A stretch of 64,000 nucleotides of DNA, from contig OZ004593.1 of assembly GCA_963924555.1 (NCBI GenBank), positions 3,716,480 through 3,780,479 of the forward strand, written 5' to 3'. Numbering within the stretch: position 1 is the stretch's first letter; every line of letters begins with the position of its first letter. The translations under genes were made by a program, and so were the position numbers. Below are positions 46,340 through 58,181 of the stretch, one piece after another. Source of the stretch: Crambe crambe (Eukaryota > Porifera > Demospongiae > Poecilosclerida > Crambeidae). The notes beneath the pieces are model-generated. The model saw only the letters and a program-made list of their open reading frames with translations. It had not been told where the DNA came from and searched no databases.

Positions 46340-47665
46340 ATGGCAACTACATCAGCTCCGATGGATCCTGATGGTGCTGCAGATCGCAATGTACAGATGT
46401 GGAAAATTAAGAAACTTATCAAAAGCCTTGAAGCAGCCAGAGGGAATGGCACCAGCATGATTTCACTGATCATTCCACCTAAAGACCAAGTATCAAGAAT
46501 ATCTAAAATGCTTGCTGATGAATATGGCACTGCATCAAATATCAAGAGTCGAGTCAATAGGTTATCTGTATTAGGAGCCATTACATCAGTACAACAGAGA
46601 TTGAAACTCTATTCAAAGGTACCCACAAATGGCTTGGTAATATACTGTGGCACGATAGTTACAGATGAAGGGAAAGAAAAGAAGGTAAATATTGATTTTG
46701 AACCATTCAAGCCAATCAATACATCCCTTTATCTTTGTGATAACAAATTCCACACTGAAGCTTTGAGTGCTCTTTTGGCGGATGATAACAAGTTTGGATT
46801 CATAGTAATGGACGGAAATGGCGCCTTGTTTGGAACTCTCTCTGGCAATACCAGAGATGTACTTCATAAATTTACTGTTGACCTCCCAAAAAAACATGGT
46901 AGGGGTGGTCAGTCAGCACTTCGTTTTGCTCGTCTTCGAATGGAAAAACGCCATAATTATATTCGCAAAGTGGCAGAGACTGCAGTTCAACTATTCATAT
47001 CAAATGATCGTCCTAATGTGGAAGGTCTTATTTTAGCTGGCTCAGCTGACTTCAAGACTGAACTTAGTCAATCTGACATGTTTGATCCTCGATTGCAAGT
47101 CAAAGTTCTGAAAATAGTGGATGTTTCTTATGGTGGAGAGAATGGCTTTAATCAGGCAATTGAGTTGGCATCTGAAGTTTTATCGAATGTGAAATTCATT
47201 CAAGAAAAGAAATTGATAGGTCGTTATTTTGATGAAATTTCTCAAGATACAGGAAAATTTTGCTTTGGTATCGTGGATACACTTCAAGCACTCACCATGG
47301 GAGCTGTCGAAACCTTGATAGTGTGGGAGAATCTAGATATCAATCGTTATGTCTTAAAAAATCACAGTTCAGATGAAGAAGTTGTCCTTCAGTTGACTCC
47401 TGAGCAAGAGAGAGACAAGACATACTTTGTGGACAAAGAGACTGGTGTTGAGCTGGAACTGGTTGAGAAATGCCCATTGCTAGAGTGGTTGGCTAATGAG
47501 TACAAGACCTTTGGTGCCACACTTGAGATAGTTACGGATCGTTCGCAAGAAGGATCTCAGTTCTGTAAAGGGTTTGGGGGGATTGGAGGAATTTTACGCT
47601 ATCGTGTGGACTTTCAATCCATGGAAGCAGATTCAGATGAAGAATTTTATGATGATGATTATTAA
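46340..47665 (+). CDS. ETF1: Eukaryotic peptide chain release factor 1 (eRF1)
   Basis: Reads all three stop codons in the ribosomal A site and triggers peptide release. Single open frame of 441 residues (human 437). Domain N carries the stop-codon-reading NIKS loop ([10 protein letters not shown]) and YLCDNKF (YxCxxxF). Domain M carries the universal GGQ loop ([17 protein letters not shown]). Domain C binds eRF3, with a mini-domain near [12 protein letters not shown] and an acidic tail ([11 protein letters not shown]). The coding region has no intron, unlike almost every other gene in the window. A splice acceptor-like TCTCTCAG ends ten bases before the ATG, so a 5' UTR intron is likely. The stop lies only 32 bp from the converging EXOSC4 stop. 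Confidence 0.97.
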
Positions 47666-53090: not shown

Positions 53091-53280
53091 CGCCATAACT
53101 AGCCTCGTCCCCAGGCCGTCGGAAGGGGGAGGGGGAAGGAAAAACGGCCTGGTGTCCACTGTCTGCGCATGCGCCAAAATTCTAGTATACTTCAGTAAAA
53201 TAACTAGTAAAAATGAATGATTAGCAAACTTTTCCTACTCGCCCGCGCGATCGCAATGTTACCAGCTGGCTTGATATGGA

Positions 53281-53710
53281 ATGGCTGCATCTGTATGTCT
53301 GTGTTGCATCTGCTTAGGTAAAGCTGAACACCCACATTATCTTTCCTTCTTCAGCAAGAAGAGCTTAGAGAGAAATCTCCCAAAGAGAATCAGCCAACTC
53401 ACTGGTATTGATATCAGTCAAGATGATGGCTATCCAAGAAGGGTATGTAGAAGCTGCATAGCTAGATTTTACTCTCTGGAGAGAGGTCTAGAAGAACTCA
53501 GGGGAAAAGGCAGTGACCAGCTACAGAGCATATGCTAGCAATAGGAAGAGGGCCACTTCAAGCATTCAATCACCAAGTCAGTCTTCGAATTTGAATTCCA
53601 GTCCTAGATCCCATCCACCTGCAGCAAAGCGTAGTAAAGCAAAATGTTTGTTTCCAGGTGATGCCACTGAGATTACAGGTACATATGCAATGGTTTCTCC
53701 ACTGCCCTAG
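53281..53710 (+). CDS. ZAD-like zinc finger N-terminal part of the transposon protein
   Basis: The frame from 53281 reads MAASVCLCCICLGKAEHPHY, then VCRSCIARFYSLERGLEEL. The spacing C-x2-C ... C-x2-C, with the SLE helix after the second pair, resembles a zf-AD/ZAD-type finger (DNA or dimer contact). A shift to a second frame near 53531 (probable splice at TGACCAG) continues with a Ser-rich linker and a basic cluster PAAKRSKAK that could be a nuclear signal. Expected to be joined to the DUF6589-like region downstream. Exact splicing is unresolved. Confidence 0.55.
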
Positions 53711-53939
53711 TACTCTTCTTGCCGACATCTCCAACAGCCTGCAGAGATCAGCAGGTAGAGTTTGAAGTCAGGCATTCAATAATATGATTCTCTGCATTGA
53801 AATAGGACCAGAAATCTCACACCCTACACTAGAGGTCCAAAAATCTGTTGAGGTATCACAAGCATGCTTAGATGACATAATATGACAATACATACACTTA
53901 CCAGTACATTCACCATCCCATACCAGTCATCCACACTAA

Positions 53940-56225
53940 GTGGAGGTCTGGAAAAAGCTTGCTGGTGGTGATTTGAAATCTTTAGCAAAAGCTGTTTTTG
54001 CAAATGACAAACTCAGGAAGCATGTTCTGATGAAATTCCTTGATTTAATAAATGAGGAATGTAATGAACTTTATCGAAAAAATCCCGATAATGTTTCACC
54101 CTTTCGGAAGATTGCCATTGATAAACTTCCTGAATTTACCTGGGATAAATTGGCAGATGACCTGAAATCGAAAGCACCTACTATTTTTAAGATCTTCTCA
54201 CTTGTAGTCAGTCACAATGACCACCGAAATGAGTTCAAAAAAGGTGCCTCATGTCACATGCCGAGCATATGTATGGCTATTGCTATTTTATTGAAGGAAC
54301 GAAACAGAGAAATATGTGGGTTCAATCACTCATTTCCATTGCACTATATGCATCTCAGGTCCAGAAAAAAGTTAAGTAAAATTGTGTGTGTGTATGTGTG
54401 TTGTGGCAGCACTACAATTAGCTACTGAGGGGCGCCGGGCATGAATGGTATTTGGAAACCTATGACCCCAGGTTCCCAGCTCAATATCATGTCAGCAGCT
54501 TACATTGCATTTGCATATATATATACTGTTACACTTGCAGGCTATCGACTCAATCATCTTAACATCACTATAAGCTATAGTGCAGTTCTAAGGCTTGCTT
54601 TAGCAATAAGCAAGTTAAATGAAGTCCCAATACAAAGATGGATTGAAACACAAGATAATGTCGATGTATCAGTGGGTGTGAGAGATATAAGATCTGACCA
54701 TGCAAAGCAACTGCACCACATGTTTAGCGTGTTGGTAGTGAAAAGTAGAATTTCTCCTCCTAAAAGTTCTTGCATTATTCCATAATCGTTTAGACACTTG
54801 TCTATTACTAATTTTCTACCATCAGAGTCTGATGTAGCTTCTATCAGACTCAATCTTGCAATTATAGTCAGCAGAATTCTGTGCACTTACATCAAAGATC
54901 TTCGAAAATTCAAGAAGCTAATCCCTCAACACATAATGCACAGACAGTCTAGAAATGGCTACAAAATCAGAGGTTGCTGTTCTTGATGTACTGTACAAGA
55001 ATGAGGTCTGTCACCAAGATATGCTTGATATAATGAGAAGCCAGCGAGCTTACCTTGGGAAAAATTTCAGCAGTACTGTCCCATCAGGTGATTTGCTTAC
55101 ATGTGAAAGGCAAAGAAGTGCACAGCAACATGTAATGGACTCTGACACTCGGGAAGACAGGCTTGACCTACTTGAGCCAGTCATTGAAGACTGGCATACA
55201 CTAATGTGCCTATTTGAAGTAAGTATATTAGCCATACTACACAATAGAGCAGATACTGACACTGTACTGCAAGAACATAGTTGTCTCGTATTCATATTCA
55301 TGCAGGTGATATGGAGAAAGTATTTCACTGACAGTTCCAGTGATCATGGTACTCTTGGTCAATTCTTTGCACTTCCAAGACGATTACCAGTTGCCAAAAA
55401 GCCTAAAAAAGATATGAATGCATGTACAGATGCTATATTTACAGTGCTGAAAGGCCACCATCTAGCATTTGCATGTAAGGAGCTTGGGATTGATAATATA
55501 GATTCTGATCTCAACCACCAAATAGTAAGATCTACTTCTGACACAGAAAAAAAGAAATTTATGGTTGGTTTATCAATGAAAGCTGTAGAAAATTGTACAA
55601 TCATTACTGATACCTTATTGGGTAAAACAATGAAAGAATCGGGTGATGGAAAGTACAACTATGCAAGATCACTCTGTCACTATGCCTCACTTGCTCTGGA
55701 ATTTATGATGCCTGGCATGAGGGCGATGGGAATCGAATCATGAGGTGTTGGAAGTTTTTTTTGTTATACTTTTATGAATCAAGATGAATAAAGTATTCAC
55801 TGGCTGCTGTGCGGCAACAAATCCAACTTTTGTGCTTGCCATCAACTCTGGTACATCAGATAATATGGGACAGGTTCGTCAAAATGCATGGTGGTTTGGG
55901 GAGAAATTTGCCATGTGACCTTCATAATGAACATATTAATAAGGCACTGAAAGCAGCCATACATCACATGGGAGCCAACTTCAGTCAAAATGCTCTCACA
56001 AATATTGCAAGGGCCATCACATACATGTCATCTGTGTCAAATCAGTTTGATCTGCAATGTGGTCTTATTCCTGAATCTTCTGCACACACTACACGTGAAG
56101 ATATCGATGATATAAAGAGTGTTGTGGCTGTAGTCCAGCATAAAAAATTATGGGAGATTCATAGAGGTCGCAAATATCTCATGTTCAAAACATTACCTAG
56201 TGACCCTTTAAGTAAATTAAATTGA
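53940..56225 (+). pseudogene. DUF6589-like transposon protein, with frame breaks
   Basis: Blocks in order: VEVWKKLAGGDLKSLAKAVF-type N-terminal helices from 53940; YRLNHLNITISYSAVLRLAL after an acceptor at 54539-54540; IRLNLAIIVSRILCTYIKDL near 54850; SEVAVLDVLYKNEVCHQDML, SGDLLTCERQRSAQQHVM and LELLEPVIEDWHTLMCLFEV-like sequence at 54960-55220; and a C-terminal block to 56225 with LPCDLHNEHINKALKAAIHH. This combination (the GD-LTCER box in particular) is what I associate with DUF6589 proteins of sponges, cnidarians and fungi, presumed transposase-like. A one-base change near 54311-54317 shifts the frame, and small spacers around 54786 and 55744 may be introns or breaks. Confidence 0.65.
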
Positions 56226-56297
56226 ACGATTATATGAAAAAAAAAAAAAGATTACAGATTACAAAAGATATAAACAGTTTGAGGAAGCTGAAGGATC

Positions 56298-57852
56298 TCA
56301 GTCTGATACAGACACTGACTCAGAGTAATAATATATATGTAGATCACTAATATCTTTATACTTTGGGGCATCAGAAGCACACCAATATATAGTAGAAAAG
56401 GACTGCTCTCCGGATCGTCCAGCTCGGCCACACTCTTGGACATAATCTTCTAAACTGCGAGGGGCCCCATAGTGTATAATGGTATTTAGGCCAGCAAATT
56501 GATACCCATGCCAAGTGCTACCGTGGCAAATACCACACAAACAATGCCATTAGGATCAGCCATGCTTGTCATAATCACACTTTTGTTGTGATCCACAGTT
56601 CCTGAATGCTACATTCCAAACAATCGATTGGAAGCTATTTTATCACCATTAATAGGATAATAACTAAGGTCATCAAGTTCGTAAAGAAAGTGAGCATAAA
56701 GAGTTGAGCACATATTCAGTGATTGACAATAAATCAATACTCTACTGGCTTTAATGGAATCTAACTTCAAATCACTCATATGTCCTAAACCATTTTCAAT
56801 AGAAGTACGATTCTTTACTCTATAAAAAATATTACTTCTCTCAGGAGTAACATGATACTCAATCATATTTAATGACCGAGTAATATCTTGTAACATTGTT
56901 TGAGTAACAGTAGCTGTAGTAGCTAACATGGGAGTATTCGCAGGCAATACAGACCTAAGCTCATGGACTCTGGCATAGGATGGACGAAATTTAGCACCCC
57001 ATTTGTACACACAGTGTGCTTCATCCACTGCTATAGCTACAACCTGAGAGCAGAGAGGTTCCTGTGTAAAGTGATCACTCCAATGTCCAATGCTCACTGT
57101 CTATTATCAGGGTTTCATCTAAGGAGGGGGGCGCAGGGGAAGCTTCCCCTCCAAACAGCCAAACTGACCCAGCTTCCACCCCCCCCCCCCCCAAGATATT
57201 GCCAAAAGAAAGAATTTTTGGACAAAAAATATTTCTAAGTAGTATATTTTTAGGATCCAAGCATTTAAAAATACTTCTAAGTATTATTAATTTTTAGAAT
57301 TTAAGCATTTTTGGCTTCACACTCTGTGCGGAAGGGGACCCGCACCCTCCCCCCCCCCCCCCACCGTGGCCTTATGGCCACACGTTCCATGAGCTTCCCC
57401 TCCAAGGTGAAATTCCTAGATGAAACCCTGACTATTGCCTCTGGGGCACAATACAGGAGGGCATAGTCACCTGATCTGATGCCTTTCTCAGAAGCAAGCA
57501 AGGATTTATTCATTCCACTACTTCCACTGAGAATAGCACACCCTATGCCATTAGCCCGAAGATTTGTCACTTGGTCTACCATCAAGGATATTAAGGGTGA
57601 CACAATAACACATACACTGTGTTTGCTAGGTGGCAAAGCAGTGCATTTCAACTTAAAGTCGAACAGAAAAGGCAGAATTTGATAACATATGGATTTGCCA
57701 TATCCAGTAGGTAGCCACAAGAACACGTCTTTACCTTCATATAAAGCTTGCACTGCCTCCCTCTGTCTCTCCATTATTCTACCAGTAAACTTCAAACAGG
57801 ACAGGGCATACTCCAGCCCAGCAGCATCCTTCCTTAAACTTTGAACTATCAC
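56298..57852 (-). pseudogene. RecQ-like SF2 helicase of the transposon, disrupted
   Basis: Motif I is VFLWLPTGYGKS and motif Ia VIVSPLISLMVDQV (57852-57448). After an inserted element, motif II AIAVDEAHCVYKWG, motif III MLATTATV and the N-terminal half of RecA domain 2 follow (57097-56612). Motif VI is YVQECGRAGRSGEQS (near 56430). Breaks: the 325 bp insertion at 57107-57431, an in-frame TAG at 56609-56611 just before the HSGTVDHNK block, and a one-base frame shift near 56495-56501 within motif V. The N-terminal start is unclear because no good ATG precedes motif I. The overall order and spacing follow RecQ, without visible RQC or HRDC domains. Confidence 0.85.
57107..57431. mobile_element. 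MITE inserted in the helicase gene
   Basis: Ends TCAGGGTTTCATCTA (57107) and TAGATGAAACCCTGA (to 57431) are 15 bp inverted repeats; the next bases inward also pair (GGAAGCTTCCCCTCC with GGAGGGGAAGC-like sequence). Flanks CTATTA and CTATTG suggest a 5-6 bp duplication. It carries C- and G-runs (57178-57192, 57347-57362). Removing it restores continuity of the helicase frame between the APEAI block and the segment leading to DEAH. Confidence 0.8.
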
Positions 57853-57926
57853 ACAAGCACTCGATTATTTGCGAGGGCTTAAATTGTGCATAGTTTACTA
57901 GAGCAGTTTACTATAAATAAACGATG

Positions 57927-58081
57927 TACAGTGGATTACAGGTTGCTTGACACTAGTACTTCAGCCACGAAGGTCACATAGACCAATCAGATTTGCAGGT
58001 AATGATGTCAGCATGAATCTGATTGGTCCATGTGACCTTGCAGCTGAAGTACTAGTGTCAAGCCTGCAATCCACTTTATAC
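57927..58081. repeat. Third copy of the mariner-like hairpin MITE, nested in the 5 kb transposon
   Basis: TACAGTGGATTACAGGTTGC ... GCCTGCAATCCACTTTA matches the two copies at 51785-52095. It lies just inside the right inverted repeat of the 5 kb element, so it inserted after that element arrived or travelled with it. Confidence 0.85.
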
Positions 58082-58181
58082 CAGGAATTCTGGTACAATT
58101 TTGCGCATGCGCAGACAGTGGACACCAGGCAGGCCGTCTTTTCTCCCTTCCTACGGCCTGGGGACGAGGCTACGCCATAAC

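Follow-up and report, generated by a model that had tools for sequence, protein, structure and literature searches.

A probable AcademH-type transposon relic in the sponge Crambe crambe, and the joint inheritance of its DUF6589 and RecQ-type helicase genes

A 64,000-nucleotide stretch of the Crambe crambe genome (contig OZ004593.1, positions 3,716,480 to 3,780,479 of the forward strand; hereafter the window) contains an element of 5,073 bp at positions 53100..58172. It is very probably a copy, no longer active, of a DNA transposon of the AcademH type, in which a gene for a ZAD and DUF6589 transposase is convergent with a gene for a RecQ-type helicase. The element belongs to a kind already known, within which its family is new, and the novelty lies mainly in how the parts stay together: the co-occurrence of transposase and helicase genes across the genome, the congruence of their trees and the conservation of their codons indicate that the two form one inherited unit.

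The left end of the element opens with TAGCCTCGTCCCC and the right end closes with the inverse of TAGCCTCGTCCCC. The terminal inverted repeats (TIRs) are ~80 bp in length with arms that are 82% identical as aligned, and inside them the two sides pair without gaps over 31 nt (94%) and 32 nt (97%). Exact 9 bp target-site duplications (TSDs) with the sequence CGCCATAAC flank the element, so that both the inverted ends and the perfect duplication claimed by a first-pass annotation of the window are present. The duplication is more than a chance match, because a second full-length copy elsewhere in the genome (C3:4670728-4677663; locus L077; C3a), 6,936 bp in length, has a different exact 9 bp duplication of its own, GGATGGTGT. 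A query made from the left end scores at least 40 places across the genome, with both ends of one element counted separately. A short palindromic repeat is located inside the right end (57945-58063), where the alignment with the C3 copy has a gap.

The C3 copy contains two nested elements, one of 762 bp with ends TAACCT...AGGCTA and a 9 bp duplication (GGAACCTGG), and one of 1,316 bp with ends TAGTCT...AGACTA and a 9 bp duplication (GCTAAACAC). The empty sites of both insertions are kept in the window copy, with joined flanks matching at 51/51 and 48/51 bases respectively. Ten further elements were stitched together from the genome, and the ends of four of these could be located (C11, C1a, C17 and C8a); the duplication is 9 bp at C11 and 10 bp at C1a. 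Ends of this type also bound ten short derivatives, the nested 1,316 bp element among them, and all ten have exact duplications (9 bp in seven and 10 bp in three); the search demanded an exact 9-10 bp duplication and TAG.CT ends, and the length distribution of the derivatives is therefore biased. No duplication was found at C14:5012261-5012710, and that of C18:3713841-3714323 has a mismatch. The duplications at L024 and L029 are reverse complements of each other, and these look like a single insertion within duplicated DNA. Copies with 9 bp duplications outside the window, which the first-pass annotation had named as support for its proposal, thus include the second full copy and C11.

Three coding parts lie between the ends, and all three had been recognized in the first-pass annotation as a ZAD-like zinc finger, a DUF6589 protein and a convergent RecQ-like helicase. 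In Pfam searches the first open reading frame (ORF) matches zf-AD (PF07776) above the cut-off (E 7.6e-12), and probably encodes the N-terminus of the transposase or makes up its first exon. Two ORFs downstream, 54955-55743 (E 2.8e-14) and 55809-56225 (E 3.6e-10), match DUF6589, both above the cut-off. ORFs on the minus strand match DEAD (E 3.8e-12) and Helicase_C (E 6.1e-6), with the DEAD match of the middle helicase ORF falling just under the cut-off, and among solved structures the helicase is most similar, in its N-terminal half, to chains of the RecQ family (1oyw, 1.6e-14; 4tmu, 'RecQ', 3e-14). DUF6589 is presumably the same as the Academ transposase. Its core has three conserved acidic positions, in the motifs GDN[VI]D (with variants), GD.LT or GD.VT, and NEH[IVML]N or MEHLN, which may correspond to the D, D and E residues of an RNase H-like transposase. 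The earlier proposal that the DUF6589 protein is the transposase is thus likely, judging from these candidate residues and from its inheritance jointly with the helicase.

The window copy is a dead relic, with stop codons, frame breaks and a 323 bp insert in its helicase gene; the first-pass annotation made no mention of this decay. The DUF6589 region has in-frame stops at 54783 and 55785 and frame breaks near 54950 and 55705. Aligned pieces longer than 200 bp are 85-94% identical to the C3 copy, its closest full-length relative. The proportions of non-synonymous (pN) and synonymous (pS) differences between these two copies are 0.024 and 0.000 in the gene piece DUFn, 0.021 and 0.030 in DUFc, and 0.081 and 0.074 in HELc; pN is thus close to pS and both are low in three of the four pieces, which fits relics. 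In the fourth piece, HELn (pN 0.257, pS 0.313), a nested fragment distorts the values.

Across the genome, a convergent helicase match lies no more than 8 kb from at least 37 of the 81 DUF6589 loci listed, where ~0.9 would be expected by chance; among the remaining loci, one has a helicase match in another orientation only and 43 have none. These counts cover the best 150 of 425 first-look helicase candidates and the 102 DUF6589 candidates that were scored out of 150 at first look, and the 37 pairs are a lower bound, the helicase query having been taken from the decayed gene of the window element and limited to its N-terminal half. Pairing used 95 of the 150 listed helicase matches. Among the 55 left out, 53 cover just the query stretch that runs into the 323 bp insert (query residues 120-183), from which we conclude that the insert is a dispersed repeat; the other two represent a single fragment at C3:3220334-3220635, with no DUF6589 near it among the matches listed. 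Both ends were found in six of the twelve elements examined (the window element W, C3a, C1a, C17, C11 and C8a), and in all six the ends enclose DUF6589, the helicase and a domain that is either a ZAD or a ZAD-like Cys4. The co-occurrence of the three parts is thereby established for these elements, and the outcomes named in the first-pass annotation as contrary to its proposal, namely a helicase or DUF6589 gene that is never within the same ends, or a lack of other copies, did not appear.

The two genes also share a history. DUF6589 and helicase protein distances are correlated with r 0.936 over 11 elements (55/55 pairs), a value reached in 0 of 10,000 permutations, and all eight internal splits are common to the two trees, with three of the eight having support below 0.5 in one of the two (0.477, 0.316 and 0.091). 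Element C3b, which is nearly identical to C1a, was omitted from both analyses, and the W-C3a distance is inflated by a piece of nested element in the C3a helicase row. Between families, pN is 0.25-0.51 and pS 0.74-0.89 for DUF6589, and 0.26-0.50 and 0.68-0.86 respectively for the helicase, in 36/36 pairs of nine elements in each case (W, C3a and C3b omitted); pS is saturated in nearly all pairs and no finite dN/dS is claimed. With pN well under pS in every pair, selection preserved both proteins as the families drew apart.

The helicase might instead be a RecQ gene captured from the host and carried by accident in a few copies; transposons often take up pieces of genes, and host RecQ genes exist in this genome. 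Two host RecQ genes, placed in a small tree, attach between two groups of element helicases, and separate origins of these two groups are compatible with that position. The same two genes group together (support 1.000) and within neither element group, such that the element helicases are not recent copies of them, and the convergent pairs, the 8/8 common splits and the codon conservation all speak for lasting association. Co-occurrence and tree congruence make accidental capture most improbable, and we retain the transposase and helicase as a joint unit.

Four loci are probably members of a younger family: C3:7080171, C17:2224650 (L079) and C20:3735769, which have the same DUF6589 match score and a 437-aa frame, and C8:8975850, which is alike. 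A different organization is seen at L080 (C5:6045800-6050860) and 14 other loci, where DUF6589 occupies open frames of 619-1861 aa with no convergent helicase nearby. These are possibly of the AcademX type. A nuclease suspected in the L080 frame from a nuclease-like motif near the end of L080 gave no Pfam or PDB sequence match in the stretch searched, which ends before the frame does, and no relative came to light when viral contigs were scanned with a single piece of DUF6589.

Published passages characterize AcademH as a DNA transposon with a helicase, 9-10 bp duplications, a transposase of the DDD/E superfamily, and an occurrence in animals and fungi. One source reports that AcademH has duplications of 9 or 10 bp and AcademX of 3 or 4 bp, the longer ones seeming to be tied to the encoding of a helicase as opposed to a nuclease (PMC10045372), and a passage in another describes AcademH as low-copy in three fungal groups (PMC10799480). 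The AcademH-type identity advanced in the first-pass annotation holds for the features open to testing: duplications are 9 bp in both full copies and in C11 and 10 bp in C1a, and a superfamily 2 (SF2) helicase with DEAD and Helicase_C, and with RecQ_Zn_bind in C1a, lies inside the element ends. The ends and copies of the window family are new at the family level only, and since a helicase and 9-10 bp duplications are already published for AcademH, the suggestion that the three-part combination deserves description as a system is not supported. AcademX belongs to the same Academ superfamily, but its published 3-4 bp duplications and nuclease differ from the 9 bp duplication and helicase of the window element, which exclude it.

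Kolobok transposons target TTAA. A KolobokH-like transposon, with a Kolobok transposase and a RecQ helicase, resembles the window element in part, as passages of PMC9587614 describe a RecQ helicase together with a DDD/E transposase in KolobokH, and place the RecQ gene of the rhodophyte Kolobok-1_CCri on the opposite strand, an arrangement shared with the window element. The RecQ helicase is thus a shared trait, but the window protein matches DUF6589, KolobokH belongs to another transposase superfamily, its lineage is reported in those passages from fungi only, and the duplications seen here are 9-10 bp of varied sequence (CGCCATAAC, GGATGGTGT, GGAACCTGG) and not TTAA. Unless there are Kolobok members with duplications of that length, these target duplications rule out KolobokH, leaving it with scarcely any probability, and AcademH remains the preferred assignment.

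Several observations weigh against an AcademH-type element with a jointly inherited helicase. The assignment was made by described features, and the equation of DUF6589 with the Academ transposase is putative. Ends were sought in 12 elements and not found in six, the C17 duplication could be read as either 8 or 10 bp, and a search of the C8a ends gave no exact duplication. The ZAD match is under the Pfam cut-off in C1a and C17, and RecQ_Zn_bind was not matched by Pfam in the C17 helicase piece. Fold prediction of the DUF6589 core from 20 fragment rows was unusable (mean predicted local distance difference test score 45.7, predicted template modelling score 0.35). Among the 81 listed DUF6589 loci, 44 are without a convergent helicase match, and 15 of these contain open frames of 600 aa or more, DUF6589 thus being able to persist without a helicase; these 15 look like another DUF6589 lineage. 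Finally, the position of the host RecQ genes leaves a single origin of the element helicase unsupported, in a tree that is too small to settle the matter.

The presence of ZAD in these elements is the one point that may be new. Its four cysteines (C8, C11, C56 and C59) are invariant in 9/9 aligned sequences, and the nearest solved relatives are ZNF276 (7ppp, E 0.0036) and LD15650p (7pok, E 0.0066). There are ten zf-AD matches in the genome, seven of which are inside AcademH-type transposons or a derivative: six within 4 kb of a DUF6589 locus and one in the 483 bp TIR-ended derivative on C18. The other three (C10, C3:2927118 and C17:5775598) are under the cut-off; in each, stops interrupt the frame within the stretch that was scored, and none has DUF6589 nearby among the matches listed. 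Proximity was computed against six DUF6589 loci, and the four other zf-AD matches were compared by eye with the DUF6589 list. A Cys4 motif was seen in the first 3 kb of three of seven elements (C11, C17 and C8a) and not in C1b, C8b, C5b or C3b, whose stretches may stop short of the element start.

The ZAD of the window has its own open frame, as would be expected if it were a separate regulatory or DNA-binding gene and not a part of the transposase. We regard this as unlikely, given that the domain opens the DUF6589 side of all six elements with both ends, that a 39 bp gap between two C1a DUF6589 frames suggests short introns, such that separate frames need not mean separate genes, and that in L080 a Cys4 motif of the ZAD kind starts the long DUF6589 frame, with both in a single frame. 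ZADs are dimerization domains. The role of DNA-binding arm of the transposase, which the first-pass annotation gave to the ZAD, is not supported, and the domain is no less likely to pair transposase molecules with each other than to bind DNA. In the literature passages searched a link of ZAD or zf-AD to Academ or to a transposase is not stated, although the original AcademH paper may hold it; passages of PMC9810180 mention zf-AD and transposase in unrelated contexts. The location of 7/10 zf-AD matches in transposons or a derivative is a hint of a transposon history for ZAD. It is conceivable, if rather improbable, that a ZAD has been fixed at the N-terminus of DUF6589 (Academ) transposases since their ancestor, and that the animal ZAD zinc-finger transcription factors (ZNF276 and the large insect family) acquired theirs from a transposase of this sort. 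The origin of the animal ZAD domain thus becomes a checkable question.

In the mechanism that we propose, the DUF6589 protein would use an RNase H-like DDE site for cutting and joining the ends, and its strand transfers would be offset by 9-10 bp. Transposase molecules may be paired by the ZAD, or the ZAD may bind the ends. The helicase would be needed for mobility, and could open or remodel DNA at the ends or target, or resolve the gapped product; we see about an even chance that it acts mainly at the end or target complex and not in repair. The role in excision or repair suggested for it in the first-pass annotation stays conjectural. The two genes have moved as a pair through ten diverged lineages, which makes a role of the helicase in transposition testable, and the host genome offers at least 37 loci with DUF6589 and a helicase, one family with two full copies, preserved empty sites and long-frame relatives. 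A large SRCR expansion in this genome, with 2,833 first-look candidates of which 150 were scored, fits a sponge host. Coordinates of the features are listed in the table.

Table. Features of the window element (positions are those of the 64,000-nucleotide window)
Feature	Position	Strand	Evidence
Left target-site duplication, CGCCATAAC	53091..53099	.	Exact match to right copy
Left terminal inverted repeat	53100..53184	+	Arm alignment; genome search with left-end query
zf-AD (ZAD) zinc-binding domain	53281..53538	+	PF07776 match; four invariant Cys
DUF6589 transposase region, several broken frames	53940..56225	+	Pfam; alignment to other copies
Candidate catalytic Asp 1, GDN[VI]D motif (QDNVD in window)	54654..54656	+	Conserved position; catalytic role inferred
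Candidate catalytic Asp 2, GD.LT motif	55090..55092	+	Conserved position; catalytic role inferred
Candidate catalytic Glu, CDL.NEHIN motif	55929..55931	+	Conserved position; catalytic role inferred
RecQ-type SF2 helicase gene, broken, convergent to transposase	56298..57852	-	DEAD, Helicase_C; RecQ-family structures
323 bp insert, splits helicase gene	57108..57430	.	Alignment gap; without counterpart in C3 copy
Right terminal inverted repeat	58094..58172	-	Arm alignment
Right target-site duplication, CGCCATAAC	58173..58181	.	Exact match to left copy

Elsewhere in the window, an intact intronless frame of 441 aa is located at 46340-47665, which we take to resemble the translation release factor eRF1.

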